Assembly: GCA_019637795.1 (NCBI GenBank)
Contig: JAHBUY010000003.1
Location: 629,409 to 693,408 of the forward strand
Source: a bacterium
Lineage (GTDB): Bacteria > Desulfobacterota > Binatia > HRBIN30 > CADEER01
DNA length: 64,000 bases
Reading direction: 5' to 3'
Shown: piece by piece, positions 7,771 to 60,685 of the stretch
Layout of the letters: the number at the start of each line of letters is the position of its first letter
Position numbering within the stretch: position 1 is the first letter of the stretch
Translations under genes and position numbers: made by a program
The notes under the pieces: model-generated
Seen by the model: only the letters and a program-made list of their open reading frames with translations
What the model was told of the DNA's origin: nothing
Database searches by the model: none

Positions 7771-7776
7771 TTTCTG

Positions 7777-9000: not shown

Positions 9001-9006
9001 TCTTCC

Positions 9007-10161
9007 ATGGATCTGACGTTCTCTGCTGAGGAAGAGGCCTTTCGCGCCGAGGTGCGCGCCTGGCTCGCGGCCAACGTGCCGCCGCCCGAGGAGCTCGCCA
9101 CGCTCGCCGACGAGGTGCGGTTCCTGGTCGGCTGGCAGCGACGGATGGCGGCGGCGGGGTGGGTCGGCGTGCACTGGCCGCGGCAGTACGGCGGCCGCGG
9201 CGCCTCGACGACCGAGAACTACCTCCTGCAGGAGGAGCTGGCGCGGGCGCAGGCGCCGGAGATCATCGGCCGCATCGGCGTCAACCTGGTGGGACCGACG
9301 CTGATCCACGCCGGCAGCGAGACGCAGAAGGCGCGCCACCTGCCGCGCATCCTCGCCGCCGACGAGCTGTGGTGTCAGCTCTTCTCCGAGCCCAACGCCG
9401 GCTCCGACCTGGCGGCGCTGCGCTGCCGCGCCGAACGCGATGGCGACTGCTTCGTCGTCACCGGCCAGAAGGTATGGACCAGCTACGCGCAGTTCGCCGA
9501 CTGGGGCATCCTGCTCGCCCGCACCGATCCCGCCTCGCGCGGCGGCAAGGGGATCAGCTTCCTGATCGTCGACATGCGCAGCCCCGGCATCACGGTGCGG
9601 CCGCTGACCCAGATGACGGGCAGCGACGAGTTCAACGAGGTCTTCCTCGACGCGGTGCGCGTGCCGGCCGAGAACCTGGTCGGCGGCCTGCACCAGGGCT
9701 GGGCGATCGCGCAGACGACGCTCAGCCACGAGCGCGGCACGTCGCCGCGGCAACTGGTCGTGCATCGCATGCTGCTCGCCGACCTGCTGGCGCTGGCGCG
9801 CGAGACCGGCGCCGCCGACGACCCGATCGTCCGCCAGCGCCTGGCGCAGACCATCATCGAGGTCGAGATGACCAAGCTGCACAACTGGCGCACCCTGACC
9901 CAGTTGCGCCGCGCCGGCGCGCCCGGGCCGGAGAGCTCGCTGGTGAAGCTGTTCTGGAGCGAGATGAGCCAGCGCCTGCACGACACCGCCATGCAGGTGC
10001 TCGGCGTGCACGGCCAGCACTGGCCCGGCGAGCCGCGCGCCGTCGGGGGCGGCCGCTGGCTGCGTTCCTTCCTCTACTACCGCGCCGCCACCATTTTCGC
10101 CGGCACCTCCGAGGTGCAGCGCAACATCATCGCCCAACGCGTCCTCGGCCTGCCGCGCTGA
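9007..10161 (+). CDS. acyl-CoA dehydrogenase (second of an adjacent pair)
   Basis: 384-aa FAD-dependent acyl-CoA dehydrogenase, clearly paralogous to the preceding gene (shared FRAEVRAWLAANVP, QLFSEPNAGSDLAALRCRA and VVTGQKVWTSYAQFA). The C-terminus reads IFAGTSEVQRNIIAQRVLGL. The canonical catalytic Glu position (YEGT) is Ala here (FAGT). Adjacent dehydrogenases that both lack this Glu are known from heteromeric enzymes acting on bulky CoA thioesters such as steroid side chains, but whether these two form a complex is inference. The start at 9007 follows directly after the palindromic repeat. Confidence 0.92.
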   Translation: MDLTFSAEEEAFRAEVRAWLAANVPPPEELATLADEVRFLVGWQRRMAAAGWVGVHWPRQYGGRGASTTENYLLQEELARAQAPEIIGRIGVNLVGPTLIHAGSETQKARHLPRILAADELWCQLFSEPNAGSDLAALRCRAERDGDCFVVTGQKVWTSYAQFADWGILLARTDPASRGGKGISFLIVDMRSPGITVRPLTQMTGSDEFNEVFLDAVRVPAENLVGGLHQGWAIAQTTLSHERGTSPRQLVVHRMLLADLLALARETGAADDPIVRQRLAQTIIEVEMTKLHNWRTLTQLRRAGAPGPESSLVKLFWSEMSQRLHDTAMQVLGVHGQHWPGEPRAVGGGRWLRSFLYYRAATIFAGTSEVQRNIIAQRVLGLPR

Positions 10162-43683: not shown

Positions 43684-43999
43684 GGCGCCGTCACCCGCGT
43701 CCGTCCCACCGGTGCCACCGCCGCCCTCGCCGCCTTCGCGTCGGTGCGACGGGCGCAACGGCGGCTCGGGCCGGGCCGGTCGTCGCCCGCGCGGCACGCA
43801 ACTTGGACCGTAGTCCGTTTGGAAAACAGGCGGCGTCGCGGGGGCGATGGATCGTGCGCCGGATCGAGGCGCCGAACCGGAGGCGAACCGGTCGGTGTTG
43901 TCGAAGAGTTGGCGCACGAAACCCACCCGCAGGAGGCGAGCTGTCTTTCAACGGGCTGCAAGGCGGCGGGGCGCGCACCGGCGCGCGCCCACCAGGGTC
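43684..43999. other. 316-bp upstream region of the first large secreted-protein gene
   Basis: No gene is supported. A locally AT-richer stretch (about 43800-43830, TTGGACCGTAGTCCG) is the likeliest promoter area, but no good -10 box is visible. Low confidence. Confidence 0.35.
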
Positions 44000-46900
44000 A
44001 TGAGCTGCGTCGTCATCACCATCGTCATCGCCTGGGTCCTCGCGCTGTCGGCGCCCGGCCCGGCTCGAGCCGACGTCTGCCTCGGCGACTGCGTCGGCCG
44101 CGCCGGCGTGGGGGCCGACGACCTGCGCGCCGGCGTGACCGCGATCTTCGATCCCGGCGCGGCTGGGGTCTGCGTCGCCGCGTTCGATCGCGACCCCGAC
44201 GGCCGCGTCACCGCCGCCGAGCTGGTGGCCGCCGTCATCGCCGCGCAGAGCGGCTGCGGCGAATCGTCGGCGCGCTGCGCCGCCCTCGCCGCGCCGCTCG
44301 CCGTGCCCGACGACGACGCGGACGGGGTCGCCAGCGACCTGGTCGTCGCCGATCCCGCCGCGGTGACGACGCTGTCGGTGTCGCTGCGCATCGCCCACAC
44401 CTGGGTCGGCGACCTGCGCGCGGTGCTCACGCACCTCGACAGCGGCCGCGCGGTGCTGCTGCTCGATCGCCCCGGCGAGCCGGCCGAGCCGGTCGGCTGC
44501 AGCGCCGACGACGTCGACTGCACCCTCGCCGACGACGCGGCGCTCGCCGCCGAGGACCAGTGCGCCGACACGCCCCCGGCGCTGGCCGGCCGCCTGCGTC
44601 CAGCCGAACCGCTGGCGGCCTTCGCCGGCGAGCCGCTCGCCGGGACGTGGCGGCTGCAGGTGGCCGACCTCGCGCCGGGCGACAGTGGCGCGCTGCAGGG
44701 CTGGTGCCTGGAGGCCGCAGCGGCGCCGCCGGCGACGCCGACCCACACCGCGACCGCGGCGGCGCCGACCCGCACCGCCACCCCGACCCGGCCGGCCGCC
44801 ACCCCGACCGCGACGCCGAGCAGCGGCGCCTCGCCGACGCCCACGATCCCGGCCACGCCGACGGTCGCCGCGTCGCTCACGCCGACGCCCACGCGCGTGC
44901 CGACCGCTCCCGGCACCGCCACCGCGACGCCGACCAACCCGCCCGGCAACCTGATCGACCTCGCCATCGGCGGTCGCGTCGCCACCGACGTCGGCGCGGT
45001 GGTCGAGGTCCTGCCCGGCAGCGGCCAGGGCGTGGTGGCGATCGCCGCCACCGTCGGTGGCGCCGCCGGTTTCACCGACGAACGCGGCCTCGTCGTGTCG
45101 CGCGAGTACGACGTCGTCGCCACCGGCGCCGCGGCGGCGCAACTCTCCGGGCCGCTGCTGACGCTGCCGGTGGACGCGTCGGTGATCGAGGGGCCTGTCG
45201 ACCCCGACGGTTTCTACGCCGAGACGTTCGATGCCGCCAGCCAGCAGTGGGTCGCCGTCGACGGCATGCCGCGCTACGACGCCGCCCACGGGGCGGTGAC
45301 CTTCCAGGCGCCGCACCTGTCGCCCTACCGCCTGCGCCTGATCGCCAGCGGCGGTCCCCACGTCTTCCTCTACGGCTGGACGGCTCCCAGCGGCCACTTC
45401 CGCCTCCTTTTCTACTGTCGCACCAAGGAGCCCTGCCAGCTCCCCGCCGACGGCGACCCGGCAGTCCTACCGATCTATCCGCGCGCGGATGCGGACTGGG
45501 CCGCGGTGGGCGGCGGCCACGCCGGCGATCCGGAGGTGCCCGACTACCTCGAGGACCTCGCCCAGGCGCTGGAGGATGGCCTCGCCGCGCTGTTGGCCAT
45601 CAAGACCTCGACCGGCGCGGCGCTCTTCGCGACGCCGTCCTACCCGCTCCCGGTCGTGGTCACCCACACGCCGGACGCCAGCGGCGATTCGCCGCTGGGC
45701 GGTCCGCTCCGCATCAACGCCCGCCTGAGCGACTGGAACGAGATGCGCACCACGGCGCCGCACGAGCTCGTCCACGTCCTCGCCGACCAGCACTACACCA
45801 TCCTCGGCGCGGTGCTGAACCGGTGGTACTTCGAGGCCATCGCCAACCTCTGGGCGGCGCGCGCCGCCCGCCTCTCGCGCGCCGAGGCGGTGACGTACTA
45901 CCGGCGCGAGATGGCCACGTACCTGCGCGTGCCGCTCACCCAGTCGGACGAGGGCAGCTACTACGCGGCGGCCGACTTCCTCGACTGGCTGGAGACCCAG
46001 GTCGGCGCGCCGCTCGCCGCCGACGTCGTCGCCGCCGACTACACGCGCGACATCGACGGCCTCGCCGCGCTCCTCGCCGCGAGCCACGGCCGCACGCTCG
46101 ACTCGCTGTTCTTCGAATACGCGCGCCTGGCCACCGTCGGCGCCTACGATCTCAAGCCCGGCTATCTCTACCAGATCGTCCCGGGCCAGCTCTTCCAGGT
46201 GCTGACGCCCGATCAGCGCGGCTGGCGCGTCCAGTTCAACCAGTTCAACCACAGCGTGCGCGCCCTGAGCCTGCGCACCTCGATCGCCCGGCCGGGACTG
46301 CTCGTCGCCGTCGCCGAGCGCGAGCTCCACGACGCGCTGCGCGGCCTGACGACCTTCTCCTACGCCAGCCAGGCGGTCGGTCCGGTGGCGGACATCGACG
46401 CCTTTCTCGAAGCGGGGCTCGCCGCCGGCCAGCCGGTGACGGTGAAGAACTTCGGCGCGCCGATGACCAGCGGCGTCGACGCCACCATCCTCGACCAGAT
46501 CGTCGTCACGGGCGAGCAGTACCGCCCCGTCGGCGAGGACCCGCACGTGTTCGACTTCTACTTCCTCGAGGCGCCGCAGGCGACCGCGCCCGCCATGGGG
46601 CGCGTGACGTGGACGTTCGACGACCGCGGCATCCCGCCGCTGGGGTTCCTGCAGACGCCCTACGTCGCCGGCTTCAACGTCTACAGTCGCGGCGAGCGGG
46701 TGAACCCCGACCGCATCGATCCGGCGGCGCGGCAGTACGAGAACCCCGCGCTCGTCGACGGCTGCGGCGCGCGGGTCACGGTCGAGGACCGTTACGGCAC
46801 CGAGTGGCCGGACCCCGCCGCGCTGCAGCTCGCCGCTCCGTCGGGCTCCGCCCTCTGCTGTGGACAGGGCACGGCCTGCCGCCTCGCGCCGTGCGCCACC

Positions 46901-47131
46901 GGCGGCGCCATTCCGCACGCCTGGACGATCACCGGGGGCCTCCTCCCGCCGGGGTTCGTGCTCGACGGCACCACCGGCGAGATCGCCGGCACCGTCGGCG
47001 TCGAGGAGCGCGAGTACACCGTCACCCTGCAGGTGCGCGACGCCGCCGGCGCCACCGCCGACTACACGGCGACCATCCTCCACTGCGGCGACTTCAACGG
47101 CTTCCGCTGCACGGTGGAGTGCCTGTACTGA
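44000..47131 (+). CDS. large secreted putative metallopeptidase with EF-hand-like, P-domain and Ig-like modules
   Basis: 1043-aa exported protein. Signal peptide 1-25; a Cys-framed dockerin-like pair (about 26-80) whose second loop is DRDPDGRVTAAEL; a proprotein-convertase P-like domain (about 90-235, ending GTWRLQVADLAPGD and LQGWCLE); a Thr/Pro linker (about 238-315); a beta-rich region; then HELVH at 588-592 and Glu612 in WYFEA. The HExxH-19-E spacing equals that of thermolysin-type gluzincins, so a zinc peptidase is plausible though no family is recognised. The C-terminus carries an Ig-like (He_PIG) domain (TGGLLPPGFVLDGTTGEIAG). Secreted; substrate unknown. Confidence 0.75.
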   Translation: MSCVVITIVIAWVLALSAPGPARADVCLGDCVGRAGVGADDLRAGVTAIFDPGAAGVCVAAFDRDPDGRVTAAELVAAVIAAQSGCGESSARCAALAAPLAVPDDDADGVASDLVVADPAAVTTLSVSLRIAHTWVGDLRAVLTHLDSGRAVLLLDRPGEPAEPVGCSADDVDCTLADDAALAAEDQCADTPPALAGRLRPAEPLAAFAGEPLAGTWRLQVADLAPGDSGALQGWCLEAAAAPPATPTHTATAAAPTRTATPTRPAATPTATPSSGASPTPTIPATPTVAASLTPTPTRVPTAPGTATATPTNPPGNLIDLAIGGRVATDVGAVVEVLPGSGQGVVAIAATVGGAAGFTDERGLVVSREYDVVATGAAAAQLSGPLLTLPVDASVIEGPVDPDGFYAETFDAASQQWVAVDGMPRYDAAHGAVTFQAPHLSPYRLRLIASGGPHVFLYGWTAPSGHFRLLFYCRTKEPCQLPADGDPAVLPIYPRADADWAAVGGGHAGDPEVPDYLEDLAQALEDGLAALLAIKTSTGAALFATPSYPLPVVVTHTPDASGDSPLGGPLRINARLSDWNEMRTTAPHELVHVLADQHYTILGAVLNRWYFEAIANLWAARAARLSRAEAVTYYRREMATYLRVPLTQSDEGSYYAAADFLDWLETQVGAPLAADVVAADYTRDIDGLAALLAASHGRTLDSLFFEYARLATVGAYDLKPGYLYQIVPGQLFQVLTPDQRGWRVQFNQFNHSVRALSLRTSIARPGLLVAVAERELHDALRGLTTFSYASQAVGPVADIDAFLEAGLAAGQPVTVKNFGAPMTSGVDATILDQIVVTGEQYRPVGEDPHVFDFYFLEAPQATAPAMGRVTWTFDDRGIPPLGFLQTPYVAGFNVYSRGERVNPDRIDPAARQYENPALVDGCGARVTVEDRYGTEWPDPAALQLAAPSGSALCCGQGTACRLAPCATGGAIPHAWTITGGLLPPGFVLDGTTGEIAGTVGVEEREYTVTLQVRDAAGATADYTATILHCGDFNGFRCTVECLY

Positions 47132-47449
47132 CGGAGGGCGACCGACCGACGCCGGTTCGATGCGGCGGACCGTCGGGCGCATCCCGCAGACCGCGAGACC
47201 GCGTGCCGATCCGTGTCGGGTCGCAACGACACGCCCCCCGCCGGCCATTCCCGACGCTCTCGGCCGCGTTGGTGGCGTGCGGGTCCGAGTTGGAACGCCC
47301 GATTCGAGAAGTGAACGATCTGAACAACGATGTCGTCGGGCGTCCTCTGACCGGGGGCGTGCTTCCCGTCCGCGACAATCGCTCGCTCATTTCGCATTGG
47401 CTCTCCGATCGGCGCCGACGCGGCACGGAACGTGCCGGTCGGTGTTCAC
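47132..47449. other. 318-bp upstream region of the second large secreted-protein gene
   Basis: No gene is supported. Positions about 47290-47340 and 47385-47400 are AT-richer than their surroundings and may hold a promoter. No repeat or hairpin stands out. Confidence 0.35.
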
Positions 47450-50400
47450 ATGGGCTCAATCATGCTCGGGCCTCGAGCTCTCGCGGTCGGCGCCCTGCTC
47501 ATGGCGGCCGCTCCGGCGGCGGCCGTGACCCACGTGTGCGGGACCTTGACCGCCGACGCGACCTGGGTTGGCGGCGAGGTGTACGTGATGGACTGCACCG
47601 TCACCGTGCCCGCCGGCCGCACGCTGCGCGTCGAGCCGGGGGCGGTGGTGAAGCTCGGGCTGCGCGACTTCTTCGTCGACGGCGAGCTCATCGCCGCCGG
47701 CTCGCCCGCGGCGCCGGTGGTGTTCACCAGCCTCGAGGACGACGCCTGGGGCGGCGACACCAACGGCGACGGGCCGAGCGCCGGCCAGCCCGGCCAGTGG
47801 GCGGCGCTGACCTTCAACCCCGGCAGCCGCGGCCGCCTGAGCGACGCGATTCTCCAGTACGGCGGCGGCTTCTACTTCCACTACAGCTCGAAGGCGCTGC
47901 TGCGGAACTTCGGTGGCGACGTCGCGCTCGAGCGGGTGACGCTGCGCGGCAGCGCCGTGTACGGGCTGTACGCCGCGAGCCCGGTCAACGTCACGGAGAG
48001 CGTCGTCGGCGACAACGGCGACTGGGGCCTCTACTACGACGGCCTCGGCGACGGCGCGCCGCTGGCGATCGTCGACAACGTCTTCTCCGGGCCGTACCCG
48101 GGGCTGCTCCGGCTCGGCGGCGAACACGGCATGGTGACGCTGCGCGGCAACCGGATCGAGGGCGCGGCGAGCGGGTTCTCGCTGCGCGGCGAGCTGCGCG
48201 CGCCGCTGGAATGGGACAACGACCCGAGCTTCGTGATGATCGTCTCCAGCGACCTGCGGGTCGCCCCATCCGGCTCGTTGCGCCTGGCCCCCGGCAGCAT
48301 CGTCAAGCTCACCTTCGGCAGCTTCAACGGCGGCGAGCTGATCGTCGAGGGCACGCTCGAGGCGGCCGGCAGTCCCGAGGCGCCGGTGGTGTTCACCAGC
48401 CTGGAGGACGACGCCTGGGGCGGCGATACCAACGGCGACGGCGCGCTCACCGCGGCAGCCCCCGGCCAGTGGTCGGCGATCACCTTCGCCGCCGGCAGCC
48501 GCGGGCGCATCAGCGATGCGATCATCCGCTACGGCGGCGGCTACTACTTCCACTACAGTTCGAAGGCGCTGATCCGTGCCTTCAGCGACGATGTCGTGCT
48601 CGACGGCGTCGAGCTGTCGGGCAGCGGCCGCTACGGCATCTATGCCGAGAACGGCCCCATGCTGGTGCGCCGCGGTCGGATCACCGACAACGCCGAGCAC
48701 GCGGTCTTCAACCAGACGCCGGCGCTGGCCGTCGACGCCCGCCGCTGCTGGTGGGGCGACCCGAGCGGCCCGGCGCATCCGACCAGGAATCCGGCGGGCC
48801 AGGGCGGACGGGTCAGCGACGGCGTGCTGTTCTTCCCCTGGGCGGTGGACGAACAGGGCACGCTGGCGACCCAGGTACTGCTCGGCGGGCCGAGCCGCGT
48901 CAGTCCCGGCGATACCGTGGACTATGCGGTGTCGTACTTCGCCGGCGAGGCGATCGACGACGCGGTGCTGAAGGTCGCGCTGCCGGCCGGCGCCGAGTAC
49001 GTCGCCGGCGACGGCGTGTTCTGGGCCCGCAACGGGGAGGTGTTCTGGACGCTCGGCGACCTGGCACCGTTCAGCGAAGGTATCCGGTCGGTGCGCCTGC
49101 GCTTCCCCTGGGGCCTGTCGGAAGCCCGGCGCATCGCGCGCGGGCTGCTCGACGGCAGCAACGTCGACGGCGGCGGGCACGAATTCGACACCGCGCCGTA
49201 CTATGCCTACGCGCGCCCGCCGGCGGGCGCGGCGGAGACGCTGGACGCGGAACAGATCGCGCCGCTGATCGCCGCCCGGACCGACGTCGCCGCGATGGTC
49301 GACGCCGCCCGCGCCGCCGGTCTGACACTGATCGGCGGGGCGCGCTGGGCGCGCCAGGACCGCAGCTCCCTCGAGGCGCTGCTCATCGGCCCGTCCGAGA
49401 CGCGCAGCATCACCTGGGACGATGCCGGTCTGCTCGCCCTGGCGCTGCGCCCGGAGGGGGCCGTCATCGCCGACGCCAGCGGCGCCCTGCGCATCGACAG
49501 TGGCGACGGCGCCGTGACCGCCGACGGCGCGTGGGCGGAGGCCGGGCCCGCGGCGCCCGCCACGACGGCGGCGGAGGCGATCAGCAAAGGCGCCTGCCTC
49601 AACAACTGCATCGTCCAGGGCGGCATCTCCCTGGCCGAAACGGGTGGGCTGGCACCCCAGGCCGTCTCACCGCGCCTCGCGACCCAGCAGATCCTCAGCC
49701 GCCGCCTGTGGCCGACGCTGACCTCGAAGGCCTGCCAGACCATCTGCGCCCGCCTCGGCGACTGCGGCCTCTGCCTGCAGGCGCTGCTCGACGAGAAGCA
49801 GGGGCTGCCGGAGATCGAGGACCTGCTGTTCACCTGCAGCCGCGGCTGCGACGACGCCGGCACCCGGCGCACGGCGCGCTGCGACTACACCAGGCAGCTT
49901 CCGCCCCCCGAGCCGCCGCCGATCCTCGTCTGCGAGGGTGGAATCGCGGCGCACGGCGTCTCGGTGTCCGTCTTGCGCTGCGATCAGACCACCGGCGCCT
50001 GGCGACGCGAGCCGGGCCTGGCGTTCGAGTGCCTCTGCCTGGCGCAGGATTCGCGCGCCGAGGTGACGTGCACCCAGCAGGGCATCGGCGTCGCCTGCAG
50101 CACCGTGCCCGACCGGGCGACGAGCGCGACGCGCTGCGGCGACACCTACACGCCGCGCACCGTGGCGCAGGGCTACGAGGGCTACTGCACCGCGCGCCGC
50201 TTCACCGGCTACTGGGGCACGCCGCCGGCGGCCGCCGGCCTGGTGAGCGCCGCCGCGACGCTCGGCGAAGGGGACTGCTCCGAGGTGTCGACGACCGTGC
50301 GCGTGGCGCGCGATCCCAACGAGAAGGCTGGAGCCAGCGGCGACGTCGTCCCCGGCGACCTCCTCACGTACACGGTGGCGTTCGAGAACGAGGGCGCGGG

Positions 50401-51499
50401 GCGCGCCTACGGCGTCTACGTCGTCGACGATCTCAGTCCCCATCTCGACGAGAGCACCCTCGACCTGATGGGCGCCGGCACGTTCTATCCGACCACCCGC
50501 ACCATCCTCTGGGATGTCGGCGAGCTGGCGCCCAAGGGCGAGGCGGGCTCGACAGGCGAGCGTACGTTCACGGTTCGCGTCCGCGCCGACGCGGCGAGCG
50601 GCACCGTCATCGCCAACCAGGCGGTGGTCTACTTCCCCAGCGTGCCGGAGGAGACGGCGACCAACACCGTCGTCAACGCCGTGCAGCCCGTCGCCGCCAC
50701 GCCGCAGACGCTCGCCACCGACTACGCCACCCCGATCGCGATCACCCTGCGCGGGCGCGATGCCGCCGGCGCCGCGCTTGCCTTCGCCGTCGACCGCCAG
50801 CCCGCCAACGGCGTCCTCACCGGCACCCCCCCGAACCTGATGTACCTCCCGGAGGAGAACTTCGTCGGCCAGGACCGCTTGACGTTCACCGCCAGCAACG
50901 GCGTCAGCGAGAGCCTCCCGGCCGCCGTCATCATCGTCGTGCAGCCGTCCCCGGCCGACGTCCGCCCGCCGCAGGTGGTCTGGACCTATCCTCCCGACGG
51001 GGCCGCGTGGCCCGCTCCGCCAACGGCGCCGCTGTTGAGCGATGCCAGCGGGCCCCTGTACGGGCCGGCGCTGGCGATCGGCTTCTCCGAGCTCATGGAC
51101 GCCGCCACCATCGACGCCGACTCCTTCGCGGTCCGCGACCAGCGCGGCCGCCCGATCGAGGCGCAGGTCTCGTGGGACGCCGCGGCCTACCGCGCCCTGT
51201 TGGCGCCGCGCGCGCCGTGGGAGCGCGGGCGCTACACGGCGACCGTCACGGATGCGGCGCGGGACGCCAGCGGCAACCCGCTGCCGGCGGCGTACGCGTG
51301 GACCTTCCGTGTCGGCGAATGCGTCGGCGACTGCAACGGCGACGGCATGGTGTCGATCGACGAGCTGATCCGCGGCGTCAACATCGCCCTCGGCAGCCAG
51401 CCGGTCGCCGCGTGTCCGTCCTTCGACGCCAACGGCAGCGGCACCGTCGACATCGCCGAGCTGATCACCGCCGTCAACGCCGCCCTCGCCGGCTGCTGA
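47450..51499 (+). CDS. giant secreted protein with beta-helix repeats, DUF11, Ig-like modules and dockerin-like tail
   Basis: 1349 aa. Signal peptide to about residue 25. Two near-identical beta-helix blocks (about 55-185 and 275-400), each with VVFTSLEDDAWGGDTNGDG and YFHYSSKAL. A domain with two Cys-rich clusters covers about 700-950. A DUF11-like domain (about 950-1080: DPNEKAG, LTYTVAFENEGAGRAYGVYV), a cadherin/Ig-like module (about 1085-1165) and an SbsA-like Ig domain (about 1170-1285, ending AWTFRVGECVGD) follow. The C-terminal 60 residues are a dockerin-like EF-hand pair (GDCNGDGMVSIDEL; DANGSGTVDIAEL) closed by Cys. It probably sits at the cell surface or in a matrix. Start ATG 47450 or 47462. 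Confidence 0.8.
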   Translation: MGSIMLGPRALAVGALLMAAAPAAAVTHVCGTLTADATWVGGEVYVMDCTVTVPAGRTLRVEPGAVVKLGLRDFFVDGELIAAGSPAAPVVFTSLEDDAWGGDTNGDGPSAGQPGQWAALTFNPGSRGRLSDAILQYGGGFYFHYSSKALLRNFGGDVALERVTLRGSAVYGLYAASPVNVTESVVGDNGDWGLYYDGLGDGAPLAIVDNVFSGPYPGLLRLGGEHGMVTLRGNRIEGAASGFSLRGELRAPLEWDNDPSFVMIVSSDLRVAPSGSLRLAPGSIVKLTFGSFNGGELIVEGTLEAAGSPEAPVVFTSLEDDAWGGDTNGDGALTAAAPGQWSAITFAAGSRGRISDAIIRYGGGYYFHYSSKALIRAFSDDVVLDGVELSGSGRYGIYAENGPMLVRRGRITDNAEHAVFNQTPALAVDARRCWWGDPSGPAHPTRNPAGQGGRVSDGVLFFPWAVDEQGTLATQVLLGGPSRVSPGDTVDYAVSYFAGEAIDDAVLKVALPAGAEYVAGDGVFWARNGEVFWTLGDLAPFSEGIRSVRLRFPWGLSEARRIARGLLDGSNVDGGGHEFDTAPYYAYARPPAGAAETLDAEQIAPLIAARTDVAAMVDAARAAGLTLIGGARWARQDRSSLEALLIGPSETRSITWDDAGLLALALRPEGAVIADASGALRIDSGDGAVTADGAWAEAGPAAPATTAAEAISKGACLNNCIVQGGISLAETGGLAPQAVSPRLATQQILSRRLWPTLTSKACQTICARLGDCGLCLQALLDEKQGLPEIEDLLFTCSRGCDDAGTRRTARCDYTRQLPPPEPPPILVCEGGIAAHGVSVSVLRCDQTTGAWRREPGLAFECLCLAQDSRAEVTCTQQGIGVACSTVPDRATSATRCGDTYTPRTVAQGYEGYCTARRFTGYWGTPPAAAGLVSAAATLGEGDCSEVSTTVRVARDPNEKAGASGDVVPGDLLTYTVAFENEGAGRAYGVYVVDDLSPHLDESTLDLMGAGTFYPTTRTILWDVGELAPKGEAGSTGERTFTVRVRADAASGTVIANQAVVYFPSVPEETATNTVVNAVQPVAATPQTLATDYATPIAITLRGRDAAGAALAFAVDRQPANGVLTGTPPNLMYLPEENFVGQDRLTFTASNGVSESLPAAVIIVVQPSPADVRPPQVVWTYPPDGAAWPAPPTAPLLSDASGPLYGPALAIGFSELMDAATIDADSFAVRDQRGRPIEAQVSWDAAAYRALLAPRAPWERGRYTATVTDAARDASGNPLPAAYAWTFRVGECVGDCNGDGMVSIDELIRGVNIALGSQPVAACPSFDANGSGTVDIAELITAVNAALAGC

Positions 51500-51538
51500 A
51501 CGGACGCCGAGGGCAACCCTGGCGAACGCGCGGGGGGC

Positions 51539-51558
51539 GCGGGTGCCACAGCGCCCGC
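51539..51558 (+). terminator. hairpin after the giant dockerin-like gene
   Basis: GCGGGTGC (51539-51546) and GCGCCCGC (51551-51558) form an 8-bp stem with a CACA loop, 40 bp past the stop. Likely a factor-independent or stabilising hairpin, without a long T-run. A related G-rich sequence occurs after the dockerin remnant at 58948. Confidence 0.45.
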
Positions 51559-51730
51559 AATGTCCCATCGATGCCACCCGCCGCCGGCCGTCGCCGGCGC
51601 CGTCCGTCCAACTCCGCGCTCCATGCGCACCTCCCGTGCCCCCCCGGACATCAGCCGCGCCCGCGCGAGACGAACCGGATGCGGCCGCCGTTGCGCGCCG
51701 AGACTGCTCCATGGCAGTCAGCGCCCTACC

Positions 51731-54457
51731 ATGACGCCGGAGCAGGAGGCTCGCCAGCAGATCGACGCCCTGCTGGAGGCGTGCGGCTGGGCGGTGCAGG
51801 ACTACCGGCGCTACGATCCGTCGCAAGGCCCGGGCGTCGCCCTGCGCGAGGCGCCGATGAAGGCCGGCTTCGCCGACTACCTGCTCATCGCCAACCGCCG
51901 GCCGGTGGGCATCATCGAGGCGAAGAAGCCGGGCACCCACCTCAGCGGCGTGGTCGAGCAGTCGGCGTTCTACGGCCAGAACCTGCCGGATCTGTTCCAG
52001 GGCAGCGCGCCGCTGCGCTTCTACTACGAGTCGACCGGCGTCGAGACCTTCTTCCGCGACGCCGCCGATCCGGCGCCGCGCTCGCGCCGCGTCTTCGCCT
52101 TCCATCGCCCGGAGACGCTGGCGGAGTGGCAGGCGCGCCCCGACACCCTGCGCGCCCGCTTGCAGCGCCTGCCGCCGCTCGCCACCGCCGGCATGCGCGC
52201 CTGTCAGGTGGAGGCGATCACGGCATTGGAACGGTCGCTCGCCGCCGACCAGCCGCGGTCGCTGATCCAGATGGCGACCGGCGCCGGCAAGACCTTCACC
52301 GCCTGCGCCTTCACCTACCGGTTGATCGCCCACGCGGGAGCGCGCCGCGTGCTGTTCCTGGTCGATCGCGCCAACCTCGGCCGCCAGGCGAAGACCGAGT
52401 TCGAGCAGTTCACCGTCCCCGACAGCGGCCGCAAGCTCACCGAGCTGTACAACGTCCAGCACCTGCTCTCGAACGCCCTCGATCCGGTGTGCCGGGTCAC
52501 CATCTGCACCATCCAGCGCCTGTACTCGATGCTGCGCGGCGAGGAGCTGGCCGAGGACATCGACGAGGTCTCCGGCTTCGAGCTCGCCGCCGCCGACGGC
52601 CGCCCGCGCGAGGTGCGCTACAACCCAGCGCTGCCGATCGAGACCTTCGACGTCATCGTCACCGACGAGTGCCACCGCTCGATCTACAACCTGTGGCGCC
52701 AGGTGCTGGAGTATTTCGACGCCCACCTGATCGGCCTCACGGCGACGCCGTCGAAGCAGACCATCGGCTTCTTCAACCAGAACCTGGTGATGGAGTACGG
52801 CCACGACCGCGCCGTCACCGACCGGGTCAACGTCGGCTACGACGTCTACCGTATCCGCACCGCGGTCACGGAGCAGGGCGCGACCGTGGAGAAGGGCTAC
52901 TACGTCGATCGGCGCAGCCGGGAGACCCGCGCCCTGCGCTGGGAGCGGCTGGACGAGGACCTCACCTACGCCGCCGCCGAGCTCGACCGCTCGGTGGTGG
53001 TGCCGTCGCAGATCCGCACCGTGCTGGAGACCTTCCGCGACGCCCTCGCCGGCGAGCTCTTCCCCGGCCGCGCCCTGGTGCCGAAGACCTTGATCTTCGC
53101 CAAGGACGACTCGCACGCCGAGGACGTCGTCCACATCTGCCGCGAGGTGTTCGGGCGCGGCAACGACTTCTGCAAGAAGATCACCTACAAGGCCTACAAT
53201 CCGGAGACGCGGCGCTACGAGAAGTCCGAGCACCTGATCCAGGAGTTTCGTACCTCGCCGCATCTGCGCATCGCCGTGACGGTCGACATGATCGCCACCG
53301 GCACCGACATCAAGCCGCTGGAGTGCCTGCTCTTCCTGCGCGACGTGCGCAGCCGCGTCTACTTCGAGCAGATGAAGGGCCGCGGCACGCGCGTGCTGTC
53401 GCCCACCGAGCTGCAGGCGGTGAGCGGCGCCGACGCCCGGGTGAAGGACCACTTCGTCATCGTCGACGCCGTCGGCGTCTGCGAGAGCGACAAGACCGAC
53501 TCGCGCCCGCTCGACCGCCAGCCGACGGTGAAGCTCGACAAGCTCCTGCTCGGCGTCGCCCTCGGCAAGCGCGACGAGGACGCGCTCACCACCCTCGCCG
53601 CCCGCCTGGCGCGCCTCGACTGCGCCCTCGACCCGGGGCAGCGCCGCCAGATCGCCGCGGTAGCCGGCGCCCCGCCCGCCGCGCTCTCCGCCACCCTGCT
53701 GCGCGCCGTCGATCCCGACGCCGTCGCCGAGCGCGCCGGCGGGGGCGCCGACGAGGCCCGCCTCGCCGCCGCTCGCGCCGAGCTGATCGCCGCCGCCTGC
53801 GCGCCCTTCGAGCGCCCCGCCGTGCGCGACGCCCTGCTCGAGCTCAAGCGGGTGACCGAGCAGACTATCGACGTCGTCACCCGCGATCGGGTCACCGAGC
53901 GCGGCTTCAGCGCCGCCGCCCGCGAGCAGGCCGAGCGGCACGTGCAATCGTTCCGCGCCTACATCGACCAGCACCGCGCGGAGATCGCCGCCCTGCAGAT
54001 CCTCTACAGCCGCCCGTACGCGCAGCGCCTCACCGAGGCCGCCCTCAAAGAGCTGGAACAGAAGCTCGCCGCCGCCGACGCCCAGTGGACCCCCGAGCGC
54101 CTCGCCGACGCCTACCGGCAACTGCGGCCCGACCGCGTCCGCGGCCAACTGCGCCGCTTCACCGACCTGGTGTCGCTGGTCCGCTTCGCCCTCGAACAGG
54201 AGCCCGTCCTCGAGCCCTTCGCCGCCCACGTCGAACGCCGCTTCGCCGAGTGGCTGGCGGCGAAATCCGCCGCCGGCGTGACGTTCACAGCCGACCAGCG
54301 CGCCTGGCTGGAGAAGATGCGCGACTACGTCATCGCCTCGGGGTCAGTGGATCGCGACCACCTCGAAGCCGACAACGTCCTGGGCCCGATGTACGGCACG
54401 TTTGGCGAACGGCTGTGGGCGCTGATGGACGAGCTCAACCTGGCGCTGGCGGCATGA
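51731..54457 (+). CDS. hsdR: type I restriction enzyme, R (motor/nuclease) subunit
   Basis: 908 aa. N-terminal nuclease domain with Asp and GIIEAKK (near residue 63, PD-ExK type). Then a superfamily 2 motor: Walker A MATGAGKT (near 181), DECH box (near 310), LTATPSK, and the late helicase motif FEQMKGRGTR. The C-terminal part is helical. It translocates DNA and cuts when the site is unmethylated. ATG 51731 has a weak ribosome-binding site. It overlaps hsdS by 4 bp and is the first gene of a five-gene operon with the unusual order R-S-X-PIN-M. Confidence 0.95.
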   Translation: MTPEQEARQQIDALLEACGWAVQDYRRYDPSQGPGVALREAPMKAGFADYLLIANRRPVGIIEAKKPGTHLSGVVEQSAFYGQNLPDLFQGSAPLRFYYESTGVETFFRDAADPAPRSRRVFAFHRPETLAEWQARPDTLRARLQRLPPLATAGMRACQVEAITALERSLAADQPRSLIQMATGAGKTFTACAFTYRLIAHAGARRVLFLVDRANLGRQAKTEFEQFTVPDSGRKLTELYNVQHLLSNALDPVCRVTICTIQRLYSMLRGEELAEDIDEVSGFELAAADGRPREVRYNPALPIETFDVIVTDECHRSIYNLWRQVLEYFDAHLIGLTATPSKQTIGFFNQNLVMEYGHDRAVTDRVNVGYDVYRIRTAVTEQGATVEKGYYVDRRSRETRALRWERLDEDLTYAAAELDRSVVVPSQIRTVLETFRDALAGELFPGRALVPKTLIFAKDDSHAEDVVHICREVFGRGNDFCKKITYKAYNPETRRYEKSEHLIQEFRTSPHLRIAVTVDMIATGTDIKPLECLLFLRDVRSRVYFEQMKGRGTRVLSPTELQAVSGADARVKDHFVIVDAVGVCESDKTDSRPLDRQPTVKLDKLLLGVALGKRDEDALTTLAARLARLDCALDPGQRRQIAAVAGAPPAALSATLLRAVDPDAVAERAGGGADEARLAAARAELIAAACAPFERPAVRDALLELKRVTEQTIDVVTRDRVTERGFSAAAREQAERHVQSFRAYIDQHRAEIAALQILYSRPYAQRLTEAALKELEQKLAAADAQWTPERLADAYRQLRPDRVRGQLRRFTDLVSLVRFALEQEPVLEPFAAHVERRFAEWLAAKSAAGVTFTADQRAWLEKMRDYVIASGSVDRDHLEADNVLGPMYGTFGERLWALMDELNLALAA

Positions 54458-55878
54458 ATAGCGTGGAACTCATGGTCGCCCCGCAATCCGCGCGCGACCC
54501 CAACCAATGGAAGCGCGTGCGAGTTGGGGACACGTTGCGGTTGATAAACGGCGTCGCGTTCAAACCCAGCGACTGGTCAGAGCACGGCCTGCCTATCGTG
54601 CGCATTCAGAACCTCAACAATCCGCAGGCGCCCTTCAATCGCTTCGCAGGCGAGCGCCCTCAAAAGTTCCGCCTTCGCGGCGGCGAGCTCTTGTTTGCGT
54701 GGTCTGGGACTCCAGGTACGTCCTTCGGTGCACACATCTGGCGCGGTGGTGACGCCTGGCTGAATCAGCATATCTTCAACGTGCTGTTCGACGAAGACGA
54801 GTGGGACAAGCGCTTCCTGCGACTCGCGATCAATCAGAACCTAGCGGACTATGTTCGCGCTGCTCACGGTGGCGCCGGGCTGGCGCATATCACCAAGGGC
54901 AGGTTTGAGGATTCCGAGCTTCCACAGCCACCGCTCGCCGAGCAGCAGCGCATCGTCGCGGAGATCGAGAAGCAGTTGACGCGCCTGGAGGCGGGCGTGG
55001 CGGCGCTGCGGCGCGCGCAGGCGAACCTCAAGCGCTACCGCGCCGCCGTCCTCACCGCCGCCTGCGAAGGCCGCCTCGTTCCCACCGAAGCCGAGCTCGC
55101 CAGGCGGGAGGGGCGGGAGTACGAGTCGGGCGAGGCGCTGCTCAGTCGTGTGCTTGCCCTGCGCTTTGACGAGTTCCAGCGGCAGGTACCTGCGCATCGC
55201 AGGGGCTACAAGCCTCCTCCGCCGATCGACGGGAGCGACAGAGTCCACACCCCAGAGGGGTGGACGTGGGCAACGCTAGAACAGCTGACCAGTGCGTTTC
55301 GCGTCATATGTTACGGCATCCTGATGCCGAAGGAGCACGTGCCCGACGGCGTCCTGTACGTGAAGGTGAAGGACCTGAAGGGAGACCGAGTGGACATCGA
55401 TGGTCTACAACGGACCGCACCGGCGATCGCTGCCAAGTACCACCGCGCATCGCTCCGGTCGGGGGATCTCCTTCTCGCGATCAGAGGGACCTACGGACGT
55501 GTTGCCATAACGCCCGCTGAGCTCGACGGAGGTAACATCACGCAAGATACGGCAAGACTCGACGTCAGCCCGTTGCTGGATGTGCGGTATGTGGCCACGT
55601 GTCTCCGCAGTGAGCCCGTGCAGCGCTTTTTCAAGGCAGTGGCACGCGGCGTCGCGGTGAAGGGAGTGAACATCGGCGACGTTCGCATGACACCCATCCC
55701 CGTCCCACCCCTTGCCGAGCAGCACCGCATCGTCGCCGAGGTGGAGCGGCGGCTGTCGGTGGTGGAGGAGCTGGAGGCGGCGGTGGCGGCGAACCTGGCG
55801 CGGGCGGGGCGGTTGCGGCAGGCGATCCTGCAGCGCGCCTTCCGCGGCGAGCTGGTGCCGCCGGAGCCGGCGGAATGA
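54454..55878 (+). CDS. hsdS: type I restriction enzyme, specificity subunit
   Basis: 474-aa DNA-recognition subunit with two target-recognition domains (about residues 15-155 and 270-415). Each is followed by a conserved helix beginning LAEQQRIVAEIEKQL or LAEQHRIVAEVERRL. The repeated CEGRLVP and FRGELVP words end each half. The two recognition domains are visibly less GC-rich than the flanking conserved segments, a sign of exchange by recombination. Recognition sequence not predictable. Confidence 0.93.
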   Translation: MNSVELMVAPQSARDPNQWKRVRVGDTLRLINGVAFKPSDWSEHGLPIVRIQNLNNPQAPFNRFAGERPQKFRLRGGELLFAWSGTPGTSFGAHIWRGGDAWLNQHIFNVLFDEDEWDKRFLRLAINQNLADYVRAAHGGAGLAHITKGRFEDSELPQPPLAEQQRIVAEIEKQLTRLEAGVAALRRAQANLKRYRAAVLTAACEGRLVPTEAELARREGREYESGEALLSRVLALRFDEFQRQVPAHRRGYKPPPPIDGSDRVHTPEGWTWATLEQLTSAFRVICYGILMPKEHVPDGVLYVKVKDLKGDRVDIDGLQRTAPAIAAKYHRASLRSGDLLLAIRGTYGRVAITPAELDGGNITQDTARLDVSPLLDVRYVATCLRSEPVQRFFKAVARGVAVKGVNIGDVRMTPIPVPPLAEQHRIVAEVERRLSVVEELEAAVAANLARAGRLRQAILQRAFRGELVPPEPAE

Positions 55879-55902: not shown

Positions 55903-56943
55903 ATGCCGGCGGCGACGTCCGATGACTGGGCTCCCGTGGCATTCCCGTCCGGGTCGCACTATCCTCGGCCGCGCTCGGAGGCATCCACCACGGCGTACGT
56001 CGAACGCACACTCGAGCTGAGAGGCACCGCCGGCCTGGGGCAGAAGCCCCGACCGGAGCTGCTCGGGCCGATCCTCGGCCGCATTCACTCGACCTTGCTC
56101 GACAGCGTGCGGATGGGCTTCCTGCACTCGAGCCGGATGCGGGGCGCCGTTCCCAAGGCGCTGCGTCGCGCCTCAGAGGTGCGCTACCTCGGCCACTCCG
56201 CCGCCTCCGGAGAGTGCACCGCGCTGCACTTCGAGCTGCCGGAGTTCGGCTCCGTTGCCGAGGAGCTCTTCCGCCAGGGGCAGCTCTGGGATTCGCGGCC
56301 ACGCCCCGACGAGACCGCGATCGACCTGCTCGCCCAGATCATCGGCGACGTGCGCGGCGAGGTCCGCGACAGCCAGCGCTTCGACCAGGCGCTGCTCGGC
56401 CGCCTGGCCCGCTACCGGCCGGTCTTTCGCCGCGGGCTCACCGCCGTCGCGCTGGTCGATGCCAGGGCGCCCTCCCTCGCCGAGATCGACGCGCCGTTGA
56501 GCCGGGTCGCCCAGACGCTGGCGCGCGACACGCCGCCGGCGCGCCGCGTGCGCCTGTGCGCGCGGCTCGACATGCTGGGCGTCAGCAAGCGCGTCCTCGG
56601 ACTGCTGCCGGAGTCCGGCACCCCCGTCACCGCGGTGTGGATCGCCGACGACTTCGTCGATCTGGCCCGCTTCCTCGACCAGCAGGTGCTGATCGAGGGC
56701 CTGGCCGAGTTCCGGCCGTCCGGGGCGCTGCTGCGCATCGACGCCGACGCCATCCGGCCGGCGGCGCCGGCGGACCGCTTCTTCGCGCAGCTTCCGGTCG
56801 GCGAGCGTCGCCGCAATTACGCGCGCGAGGCGGCGGCGACGCGCCCCGGCGAGCGCCCCTACGCGTCGATCATCGGCCTGCTGCCCGCCGACGAATCGGA
56901 ATCGGAAGAGGAGTTCTCCCGCGCGGTCGACGAACTGAGCTGA
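55903..56943 (+). CDS. protein of unknown function encoded inside the restriction operon (X)
   Basis: 346-aa soluble protein with no signal, membrane helix or known catalytic motif. The N-terminal half is helical (LGPILGRIHSTLLDSVRMGF; ALHFELPEFGSVAEELF). The C-terminal half has a beta-rich segment, VRLCARLDMLGVSKRVLGLL through VWIADDFVDLARFLDQQVLI and GLAEFRPSGALLRIDADAI, that looks like an OB-fold or small-barrel module. I recall similar uncharacterised proteins next to PIN genes but can name no family. AAAGG lies 5 nt before ATG 55903. It is 24 bp after hsdS, and its stop overlaps the PIN start (TGATG). A role as antitoxin or effector partner of the PIN protein is inference. Confidence 0.7.
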   Translation: MPAATSDDWAPVAFPSGSHYPRPRSEASTTAYVERTLELRGTAGLGQKPRPELLGPILGRIHSTLLDSVRMGFLHSSRMRGAVPKALRRASEVRYLGHSAASGECTALHFELPEFGSVAEELFRQGQLWDSRPRPDETAIDLLAQIIGDVRGEVRDSQRFDQALLGRLARYRPVFRRGLTAVALVDARAPSLAEIDAPLSRVAQTLARDTPPARRVRLCARLDMLGVSKRVLGLLPESGTPVTAVWIADDFVDLARFLDQQVLIEGLAEFRPSGALLRIDADAIRPAAPADRFFAQLPVGERRRNYAREAAATRPGERPYASIIGLLPADESESEEEFSRAVDELS

Positions 56944-57404
56944 TGGCGACGGCCGGTTCCTACCTGCTCGACACGAACGTGGTGCTGCACCTGATTCGCG
57001 AGACCGCCGTGGGCTCCGTCATCGCATCGGCGTTCGACCTGCGCGCGTCGGGGTTCCGCCCGCTCATCTGCGAGGTGACGCTCGGTGAGCTGGCGGCCTT
57101 CGCCCTCGGACGACAGTGGGGACCGCGCAAGCGCGCCGCGCTCGAGGAGCTGAAGCGCCGGATCGTGACCGTGGACATCTCCGACCCGGCAGTCATACAG
57201 GCGTACGCGGAGATCAGTACGGTGGCGCAGCGCAAGGGGTTGTCCATCCTGAACGCCAAGAACGACCTGTGGATCGCCGCCGCCACTCGGGCGAGCGACT
57301 CGACGCTCCTCACCACGGACCGCAAGGAGTTCCTGCCCCTGCGGGATGGGAACCATGTGGCGTGCGTCGTCCTCGACGCCACGACCGGCCATCCGCTTCC
57401 CTGA
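56943..57404 (+). CDS. PIN-domain ribonuclease (VapC-like) inside the restriction operon
   Basis: 153-aa PIN protein with all four acidic positions: Asp10 (YLLDTNVVLHLI), Glu49 (VTLGELAAF), Asp108 (NAKNDLWIAAAT) and Asp126 (LLTTDRKEF). It is slightly longer than typical VapC (about 130-140 aa). There is no small antitoxin gene of the usual kind; the upstream 346-aa gene overlaps by one base and takes that place. hsdM starts 4 bp after the stop. Likely a metal-dependent RNase; its target, and whether it is linked to restriction activity, are unknown. Confidence 0.9.
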   Translation: MATAGSYLLDTNVVLHLIRETAVGSVIASAFDLRASGFRPLICEVTLGELAAFALGRQWGPRKRAALEELKRRIVTVDISDPAVIQAYAEISTVAQRKGLSILNAKNDLWIAAATRASDSTLLTTDRKEFLPLRDGNHVACVVLDATTGHPLP

Positions 57405-57408
57405 TGCC

Positions 57409-58881
57409 ATGACCGCCGCCGCCCAGCTCGTCCAGAAGCTCTGGAACTACTGCAACCTGCTCCGCGACGACGGCCTGTCGTACGGCGACTACGTCGAGCA
57501 GCTCACTTTCCTGCTCTTCCTCAAGATGGCCGACGAGCGCAGCCGGCCGCCGTTCGACAAGCGGTCGCCGATCCCGGCGAAGTTCGGTTGGGACAAGTTG
57601 GTGCAGCTCGACGGCGACGCGCTGGAGACGCACTACCGGCACACGCTGGAGGAGCTGGGGAAACAGCCGGGACTGCTGGGAACGATCTTCCGCAAGGCAC
57701 AGAACAAGATCCAGGATCCGGCCAAGCTGCGGCGGCTGATCGCCGACCTCATCGACCGCGAGAACTGGTCGGCGCTGTCGGCGGACGTGAAGGGCGACGC
57801 CTACGAGGGCCTGCTGCAGAAGAACGCCGAGGACGTGAAGGGCGGCGCCGGCCAGTATTTCACGCCGCGGCCGCTGATCCGCGCCATCGTCGCGGTGATG
57901 GACCCGCGGCCCGGCGAGATCATCTGCGACCCGGCCTGCGGCACCGGCGGCTTCCTGCTGGCGGCGCACGACCACGTGCGGGCCCGCCACAAGCTCGACA
58001 AGAAGCAGCTCGCGCACCTCAATCGCGAGGCGCTGCGCGGCGTCGAGCTGGTCGACGGCGTCACCCGCCTGTGCGCCATGAACCTGCTGCTGCACGGCGT
58101 CGGCAGCGGCGACGGCGACGACGTGCCTGTGCTCACCAGGGACGCCCTGGTCGCCAAGCACGGCGAGTACGAGGTCGTGCTCACCAATCCGCCGTTCGGC
58201 AAGAAGAGCAGCGTCACCGTGGTCACCGCCGCCGGCGAGACCCAGCGCGAGTCGCTGACCATCCAGCGCGACGACTTCTGGGCCTCGACCAGCAACAAGC
58301 AGCTCAACTTCCTCCAGCACGTCTTCACCATCCTGAAGCAGCACGGCCGCGCCGCGGTGGTGGTGCCGGACAACGTGCTGTTCGAGGGCGGCGCCGGCGA
58401 GACGGTGCGCCGCGCCCTGCTCAAGCAGGCCGACGTGCACACCCTGCTGCGGCTGCCCACCGGCATCTTCTACGCCCAGGGCGTCAAGGCCAACGTGCTC
58501 TTCCTCGACCGCAAGCCGGCGCGCGAGGCGCCGTGGACGACGACGCTGTGGATCTACGACCTGCGCACCAACCAGCACTTCACGCTCAAGGAGCATCCGC
58601 TCGCCGACGCCGACCTGAGCGAGTTCGTCGCCGCCTTCAACCCGGGCAATCGCCACGAGCGGAGCGAGCGCGAGCGCTTCAGGCCGTTCGCCTACGACGA
58701 GCTGCTGAAACGCGACAAGGTGAACCTCGACCTCTTCTGGCTCAAGGACGAGGCCCTGCAGGAATCGGCGAACCTGCCGCCGCCCGAGATCATCGCACGC
58801 GAGATCGTCGACGATCTCGAGGCGGCGCTGGAGCAGTTCGGCGCCGTCGCCGACGATCTGGAGTCCAGCGCCTCGGACTGA
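57409..58881 (+). CDS. hsdM: type I restriction enzyme, modification methyltransferase subunit
   Basis: 490-aa N6-adenine methyltransferase. Residues about 5-135 form the helical N-terminal domain (VQKLWNYCNLLRDDGLSYGD, KMADERSRPPFDKRS). SAM motif I is DPACGTGGF (near residue 175). The catalytic NPPF box is near 261 (VLTNPPFGKK). It should pair with HsdS to methylate host sites. Last gene of the operon, unusual because hsdM normally precedes or directly adjoins hsdS. Confidence 0.95.
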   Translation: MTAAAQLVQKLWNYCNLLRDDGLSYGDYVEQLTFLLFLKMADERSRPPFDKRSPIPAKFGWDKLVQLDGDALETHYRHTLEELGKQPGLLGTIFRKAQNKIQDPAKLRRLIADLIDRENWSALSADVKGDAYEGLLQKNAEDVKGGAGQYFTPRPLIRAIVAVMDPRPGEIICDPACGTGGFLLAAHDHVRARHKLDKKQLAHLNREALRGVELVDGVTRLCAMNLLLHGVGSGDGDDVPVLTRDALVAKHGEYEVVLTNPPFGKKSSVTVVTAAGETQRESLTIQRDDFWASTSNKQLNFLQHVFTILKQHGRAAVVVPDNVLFEGGAGETVRRALLKQADVHTLLRLPTGIFYAQGVKANVLFLDRKPAREAPWTTTLWIYDLRTNQHFTLKEHPLADADLSEFVAAFNPGNRHERSERERFRPFAYDELLKRDKVNLDLFWLKDEALQESANLPPPEIIAREIVDDLEAALEQFGAVADDLESSASD

Positions 58882-58897
58882 ACGGCGCCAGGGCTCG

Positions 58898-58945
58898 AGG
58901 TCGCGTGGGCCTTCCGCGTCGGCGAATGCGCCGGAGACGGCCAAC
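58898..58945 (+). pseudogene. remnant of a dockerin-like gene
   Basis: This reads EVAWAFRVGECAGDG in one frame and aligns without gaps to the Ig-dockerin junction of the giant gene at about 51293-51337 (AYAWTFRVGECVGDC). About 37 of 42 bases match, with several differences at codon third positions, which indicates divergence under selection before decay. The rest of the dockerin domain is absent. It begins only 17 bp after the hsdM stop. Confidence 0.7.
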
Positions 58946-58947
58946 GC

Positions 58948-58990
58948 GGGCGGGGGGCGCGGCCGCGCGCCGAGCCGCGCCCCCGCGCCC
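58948..58990. terminator. strong GC-rich hairpin between hsdM and a convergent gene
   Basis: GGGCGGGGGGCGCGGC (58948-58963) pairs with GCCGCGCCCCCGCGCCC (58974-58990) around a 10-nt loop. It lies between convergent genes and may terminate both. The left arm shares AACGCG-GGGGGGCGCGG with the sequence after the giant dockerin gene (about 51524-51542), consistent with descent from a dockerin gene's 3' end. Confidence 0.55.
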
Positions 58991-58991
58991 A

Positions 58992-60506
58992 TCAGGGCGC
59001 TCGCGGGCAGCCGGCGAGGGCGGCGTTGACGGCGGTGATCAGCTCGTACACCGCGATCTCGCCGTCGCCGTTGCGGTCGAGCGCCGGACACTCGGTAAAC
59101 GGCACATTGCCGAGGGCGATGGCGACGCCACGCACCAATTCGTCGACGCTCACCCGCCCGTCGCCGTTGCAGTCGCCGAGGCAGCGCGGCGGCGTCGCCG
59201 TCGGCGGCGGGGTCGCGCTCGCCGTCGGACTCGGGAGCGGCGAGTCGGTGGGTGTCGGCGGTGGTTCGGTCGAGGTCGGCGGCGGCGAGTCGGTGGGCGT
59301 CGGAGTCGCGGTGGCGCTCGCCGTGCTGCTCGCGGTCTCGCTGGGCAACGGCGTGCGGGTGGACGTGGAAACCGGGGTCGGCGTTGCGGTGCGGGTGCGG
59401 GTCGGCGTGCTGGTTCCGGCGGAGCTCACGATGATGCCGCCGCCGCTGCAGGTGGTCGGGTAGAGGTCGATCAGATGGTTCCCTGCCTGCGGCGGCGAGG
59501 TCTGGGCGACGCCGCAGACGAGCGGGACGACGCCGGCGGCGCCGCTGGCGAGGCGCAGGCGGCACGAGAAGAGCTCCACATCGCCGGGAATCGGCGCGAC
59601 GTTGCGGAAGGAGAGCACGACGGCGCGCACCGTGGCGCAGTCGAGACCCGGCGTGCAGCCGTAGGGCTGGAAGGCGAAGGCCGTCTCCTCCTTGCCGATC
59701 TGCGGGTTGACGGCGCAGTCGGGCAGGCCGCTGCCGGTGGCGGCGAATTCGGCGCCGCCGTTGGGCAGCACGAGATCGACGAGGGCGCCGACCACCGGCG
59801 CGTCGGCGGACAGCCGCACCGGCACGTCGACGAGATCGCCGGGGTTTCCGGCGCCGGTCCCGATCCGCAGCCGCGCCGCGGGGGTCGGGGTCGGCGAACC
59901 GAACGGCCGCGGCGTCCAGGTTCGCGTCGGCGTGAAGGTGGGCGTCGGAGTCGCCACCGACTGCACGATCACCCCGCCGCCGCCGCAGGCGACCGGCAGC
60001 AGGCGCTGATCCGGCGAGCCCGCCGCGGCGCTCTCGCACGCCACCGGCACGACCCCGACCTGGCTGGCGGTGATGCGCATCCGACAGGTGAACAGCGGAC
60101 CGTCCGGGATCGGGTCGACGTCGTACAGCGACAGGATGAGCGCGCGCAGCGCCCGACAGGGCGTCGCCGACTCCGCCCCGCAGCCGGCGGGAAGGAAGCG
60201 GAACACCGACGAGCCCTTGTCGATGCCGGGCTCGACCGCGCAGGCCGGATCGCCGCGGCCGTTGCGCAGCACCTCGGCGCCGTCGTCGGGCAGGGCGAGG
60301 ATCATGTCGACCGCCGCCACCGCCTCGCCGCCGCTCTCAAACTGCACCGGCAGCCACACGATGTCGGAGCGCGCGCCGCTCGCCGCGCCGATGGTGACCC
60401 GCACCGCGGCCGCGGCCGGCGCCGCGAACAGGGCCAGCGCGACGCCGCCCGCCACCAGTCGCCACCGCCCCTCGGATCGACGGACCGAATCGCGATTCCA
60501 ACGCAT
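58992..60506 (-). CDS. secreted protein with two cohesin-like domains and a dockerin-like tail
   Basis: 504 aa. Signal peptide 1-35. Cohesin-like domain 1 (about 36-180: VRVTIGAASG, VWLPVQFESGGEAVAAVDMI) and domain 2 (about 215-365: VDVPVRLSADAPVVGALVDL) resemble each other, each with a Cys pair and GGGxIV at the end. A Thr/Pro/Ser stalk follows (about 370-440). The tail is a dockerin-like EF-hand pair (GDCNGDGRVSVDEL; DRNGDGEIAVYEL) bounded by Cys. ATG 60506 is preceded by GAGGGGG. Carrying both partner types in one chain suggests self-assembly or a scaffold; binding is inference. Confidence 0.78.
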   Translation of the reverse strand: MRWNRDSVRRSEGRWRLVAGGVALALFAAPAAAAVRVTIGAASGARSDIVWLPVQFESGGEAVAAVDMILALPDDGAEVLRNGRGDPACAVEPGIDKGSSVFRFLPAGCGAESATPCRALRALILSLYDVDPIPDGPLFTCRMRITASQVGVVPVACESAAAGSPDQRLLPVACGGGGVIVQSVATPTPTFTPTRTWTPRPFGSPTPTPAARLRIGTGAGNPGDLVDVPVRLSADAPVVGALVDLVLPNGGAEFAATGSGLPDCAVNPQIGKEETAFAFQPYGCTPGLDCATVRAVVLSFRNVAPIPGDVELFSCRLRLASGAAGVVPLVCGVAQTSPPQAGNHLIDLYPTTCSGGGIIVSSAGTSTPTRTRTATPTPVSTSTRTPLPSETASSTASATATPTPTDSPPPTSTEPPPTPTDSPLPSPTASATPPPTATPPRCLGDCNGDGRVSVDELVRGVAIALGNVPFTECPALDRNGDGEIAVYELITAVNAALAGCPRAP

Positions 60507-60685
60507 GCGTACCCCCTCGCCTCGTGCATCGGCGGACCTCGCCGATGGCTGACCCGTGCAACGACCGCGCAGTCGCGGGACGGCCACCAGAGGCCCCCGT
60601 TGCGCCCCAATATCTTGCGCGCCGTGGATTGTCAGCGGCTGGCGGGAGCTGGCCGCCGCGGCCCCAGAAGCGGAGACGGGTGTCG

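Follow-up and report, generated by a model that had tools for sequence, protein, structure and literature searches.

A probable eroded copy of a giant gene's 3′ end beside a type I restriction–modification operon in a Candidatus Binatia genome

This analysis of a 64,000-nucleotide stretch of DNA, referred to here as the window, identified a short direct repeat on the two sides of a type I restriction–modification (RM) operon. The left copy (51295-51338, +) is intact and coding, lying where the Ig domain of a giant secreted gene ends and its EF-hand module begins. The right copy, a fragment at 58902-58946 (+) that starts 20 bases past the hsdM stop codon, has the appearance of a degraded direct copy of the left. 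The preferred explanation, to which a probability of about one half is assigned, is that the fragment is an eroded scar of the giant gene 3′ end, left by insertion of the hsd operon.

The giant gene (47432-51499, +) encodes a protein of 1355 aa. Pfam matches and the translation place in it a repeat region, DUF7619/DUF11, Big_9, a Big_5 Ig domain and a C-terminal four-cysteine paired EF-hand ('dockerin-like') module. It also contains an internal duplication of ~305 bases with 79 % identity (47673-47978 and 48342-48650; repeat region VVFTSLEDDAWGGDTNGDG...). A scan of GTDB contigs with the giant gene returned only one match, on Candidatus Binatia contig CALAMI010000001.1 (about 44-50 % identical; the same contig as G008 C1), and there are no hsd genes beside this homologue on its 10.6-kb contig.

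The operon has the gene order R-S-x-PIN-M. It opens with hsdR (51731-54457, +; Pfam ResIII, EcoEI_R_C and HSDR_N; PADLOC REase_I), for which the open frame begins at 51560 and the start is probably MTPEQEARQQ at 51731, followed by hsdS (54454-55878, +; Methylase_S; PADLOC Specificity_I). An uncharacterised open frame of 346 aa (55903-56943, +), with no match in Pfam, PADLOC or NCBIfam, and a PIN-domain (VapC-like) gene (56943-57404, +), assigned from its translation and a weak NCBIfam VapC match below the cut-off, then precede hsdM (57346-58881, +; Pfam N6_Mtase and HsdM_N). The type I RM system is complete, with the expected Pfam domains in HsdR, HsdS and HsdM and PADLOC assignments to type I R, S and M; one copy each of HsdR and HsdM was found in the genome. 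No integrase, transposase or IS was recognised within the stretch examined. The GC3 of hsdS is 0.79, versus a host-like value of ~0.95 for hsdR and hsdM. Low GC3 in hsdS is as expected of recombining specificity domains. Composition gives no proof of a foreign origin of the operon, only hsdS being low, and because the GC3 of hsdR and hsdM is host-like (0.95) the insertion is not visibly recent.

The two copies of the repeat are on the same strand, offset by 7607 bases, and agree at 39 of 45 aligned positions with one gap, including an ungapped core of 27/29 (51295-51323 and 58902-58930). In the spacer that separates the hsdM stop (58881) from the following gene (58992) is GAGGTCGCGTGGGCCTTCCGCGTCGGCGAATGCGCCGGAGACGGC (58897-58941), encoding EVAWAFRVGECAGDG, for which the counterpart in the giant gene is AYAWTFRVGECVGDC; the frame is that of hsdM continued past its TGA, which ends at 58881. 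The earlier note had reported that a remnant after hsdM aligns with the Ig-dockerin junction of the giant gene 7.6 kb upstream, and this alignment is borne out, with its start moved by one base from 58898 to 58897. The 'several silent differences' also reported are wrong, because codon-by-codon comparison of the fragment with the giant gene finds just two silent differences (CGT/CGC and GGC/GGA), the remaining ones being replacements (A/E, Y/V, T/A, V/A, C/G and N/Q). Comparison of the flanks shows that the homology does not extend past ~45 bases on either side, and the only other short repeat linking the spacer on the left (51500-51735) with that on the right is the G-rich arm of a hairpin.

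In the whole 6.16-Mb genome, this pairing is the top non-self DNA match, at 51.8 bits. The BLAST E-value of ~2e-7 for this whole-genome match is misleading because the GC content is ~72 %, at which standard BLAST E-values were over-optimistic by about four orders of magnitude compared with simulation. Among 97 other genomes of the class, the best match lies in unrelated coding sequence and reaches 46.4 bits, 5.4 bits lower, and unrelated coding sequences (one gene, two other genomes) match part of the fragment at 24/26 positions through common codons. The targeted null took the giant gene's 320-base 3′ end and scored it against tiles of the window. The fragment's score of 56 was not equalled by any of the 6292 other tiles; the runner-up, at 50, is around 44161, in a gene (43847-47131) that has a weak match to the EF-hand module. 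Against the junction alone, the fragment scores 48 and the null maximum is 26 in 12,726 tiles. Genome-scale nulls were based on genome searches plus window and loci tiles. For a blind null, 40 simulated 64-kb windows were generated with a fourth-order Markov model. After adjustment for composition, two of these hold some pair as good as that observed, and in plain bits only the top simulated value (53.6) exceeds 51.8; the chance of a blind, window-wide find this strong is roughly 2-5 % per window. The match is therefore modest when its location is ignored. The operon is flanked by one such direct repeat, of 45 bases and imperfect, which is significant when targeted and marginal window-wide. 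A genome protein search with the Ig domain and junction as the query returned the giant gene, then the fragment (read through the hsdM TGA), and then an unrelated weak match; no second intact gene with this Ig/EF-hand junction was found in the genome by this search. The short match is probably true homology, and we consider it highly likely that the relationship between the fragment and the giant gene is real.

Other repeats are present in the window. There is a tandem duplication of ~1.2 kb with 72 % identity at 7688-10154 (7688-8906 and 8917-10154), which has self-complementary ends near 7689-7768 and 8918-8993. A near-identical 27-base pair (26/27) is found far apart at 33047-33073 and 46298-46324; its composition-adjusted rank is just above that of the fragment pair, and it may be due to chance.

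The next gene, overlooked in the earlier note, is intact and convergent, with an open frame of 531 aa (58992-60587, −, read from 60587 to 58992). It has two similar N-terminal domains, a Thr/Pro-rich linker, and a C-terminal four-cysteine paired EF-hand module reading CLGDCNGDGRVSVDELVRG... Because this minus-strand gene ends at 58992, the hsd operon sits between two convergent EF-hand-tailed genes. The modules of the giant gene (51320-51499) and the convergent gene (58992-59183) are mutually inverted and 77 % identical over 177 bases. The module consensus is C-x-GDC-N-GDG...ELI-x-GVNIALG...C...ELI-x-AVN-x-AL-x-GC, a four-cysteine paired EF-hand. EF-hand_1 scores above the Pfam cut-off (34.5 and 29.5 bits versus 25.4, two stretches each), whereas Dockerin_1 (PF00404) is below the gathering cut-off (15.8 and 14.2 bits versus 22.9), and the 'dockerin' label used previously is only loosely right. 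The two N-terminal domains of the convergent gene, each of ~150 aa, are cohesin-like by eye (VRVTIGAASGARSDIVWLPVQF..., LRIGTGAGNPGDLVDVPVRL...); no cohesin or other relevant Pfam match to them was found, even at E 10.

Across the 6.16-Mb genome there are ~139 matches to the module, several of them clustered, located at C-termini and also just after signal-peptide-like starts. All 15 of the genomes searched within its order contain it, with 9 to at least 66 in each, and it is in none of the 83 other genomes of the class that were searched. It is possible that the module is an order-specific sorting or binding tag. A search of a literature library found no paper linking 'Binatota' or 'Candidatus Binatia' with 'dockerin'. 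This order-wide expansion of a four-cysteine EF-hand module is a better lead than the fragment.

Between the convergent hsdM and EF-hand-tailed genes there is a strong GC-rich hairpin (58948-58990), with a predicted fold of −47.7 kcal/mol and z-scores of −2.4 (+) and −2.5 (−). It has no T run, and a terminator search found none with a T tail; it is likely to be a bidirectional terminator. The G-rich stretch that follows the fragment was previously said to resemble the sequence after the giant gene. That resemblance does not stand, as the stretch is an arm of the hairpin and scores 30, a value commonly reached at gene ends (~3 % match or beat it; 13/357 with self-matches). The same grounds ruled out an extended duplication that would take in this stretch by way of an internal deletion at AACG, and the stretch is uninformative for the remnant claim.

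In the preferred history, the ancestral locus would have been a convergent pair in which the giant gene (+) and the EF-hand-tailed gene (−) faced each other. The type I RM operon, consisting of R, S, the 346-aa gene, the PIN gene and M, would have entered between the pair at the giant gene 3′ end, and a partial direct copy of the Ig/EF-hand junction would have been left beyond the operon. The left copy would have remained coding, and the functionless right copy may have decayed to the ~45 bases that can still be recognised after the hsdM stop and ahead of the hairpin. We infer that a single event produced both the insertion and the copy. This history is supported by the top non-self match sitting precisely across the operon on the same strand; counting against it, the copy is short, imperfect (39/45) and without flank continuation, no mobility gene was recognised, and the GC3 of hsdR and hsdM is host-like.

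Comparisons with relatives bear on where the operon and the fragment came from. The genus is represented by one genome. In four genomes of the same family there is no synteny at the locus, homologues of the flanking genes being present but in unrelated neighbourhoods. Homologous hsd operons are found in G013 and G003 (same order), with no homologue of the giant or convergent gene within the 16-18 kb examined; the hsd operon is therefore not an ancestral neighbour of these genes. HsdM shares 71 % identity with its homologue in G013, which is from a different family, and 64 % with the one in G003, which is from the same family, and this closer similarity across families suggests transfer. Two open frames are likewise located between the hsdS and hsdM positions of the G013 operon (L071 6768-8698). 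A search of the loci compared, among them the hsdM-homologue loci L071, L072 and L074, found the junction motif at no locus but its own. The fragment therefore does not travel with hsdM, and the idea that it is a tail native to hsdM or to the operon was rejected.

The earlier interpretation was that a second tandem EF-hand-tailed ('dockerin') gene on the + strand had been destroyed by hsd insertion or recombination. A degraded copy of the Ig/EF-hand junction and an hsd operon between two genes with such tails are both retained from it; the separate tandem paralogue is not, and is considered fairly unlikely. In its favour, genes with this tail are numerous and several are clustered, and the fragment, lying on the coding strand, covers the right part of the module. 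However, it resembles the giant gene's own junction, and because that junction was found in no second intact gene of the genome, a partial copy of the giant gene's end offers a simpler origin. A paralogue also requires an extra gene plus the near-total loss of that gene, at a site that is separated from the intact convergent gene facing it (58992) by the hairpin alone.

Also unlikely is a small local copying of the giant gene end, through template switching or repair, independent of the arrival of hsd. Such an event would fit with just ~45 bases matching and no further homology in the flanks, and with hsdR and hsdM appearing from their GC3 to be long resident, but the position of the copy right at the edge of the operon is left unexplained. 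A chance match, arising from common words together with high GC and a strong bias in codon usage, is improbable: although 2/40 Markov windows hold an equally good pair and common codons alone give 24/26 in unrelated coding sequences, the own-genome match is 5.4 bits above the best of 97 other genomes, the junction-only score of 48 is well above the null maximum of 26, and the fragment has the expected strand and sits at the operon border within an intergenic spacer.

If insertion with scarring is correct, this would be one more likely case of an RM operon arriving and leaving a partial gene-end copy, here in the little-studied Candidatus Binatia. A gene-end scar beside an inserted RM operon is a known and fairly ordinary type of rearrangement. 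No functional consequence of the fragment is apparent, and the case demonstrates the weakness of such short matches at ~72 % GC. It is very doubtful that the order-specific EF-hand-tail genes, with dozens to more than 100 near-copies per genome, are recurrent anchors where defence operons recombine in and out, such that gene-end scars recur elsewhere in these genomes.

Several known systems are similar to this locus. Dockerin type I (PF00404) likewise has two Ca-binding-loop repeats in ~60 residues and is often C-terminal; the module here, in contrast, is below the Pfam cut-off, has loops that end in Glu (EF-hand type) and has four conserved cysteines. The operon has the three subunits of a type I RM operon (HsdR/HsdS/HsdM) with the expected Pfam domains, although here two extra genes (346 aa and PIN) are between hsdS and hsdM. 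Restriction systems are described in PMC3031569, with reference to Nobusato 2000 and Furuta 2010, as inserting with long, variable target duplications. Compared with such insertions, the present operon is likewise apparently bounded by a direct repeat that would derive from a neighbouring gene, has no recognised transposase and occupies other loci in related genomes, whereas the repeat here is short, imperfect and non-contiguous, and no empty site is known. Genomic islands in gene 3′ ends differ in that here no integrase or tRNA target was recognised and the fragment maps to the module's interior side instead of to the last bases of the gene; they are alike in having a whole gene on one side and a displaced end fragment on the other.
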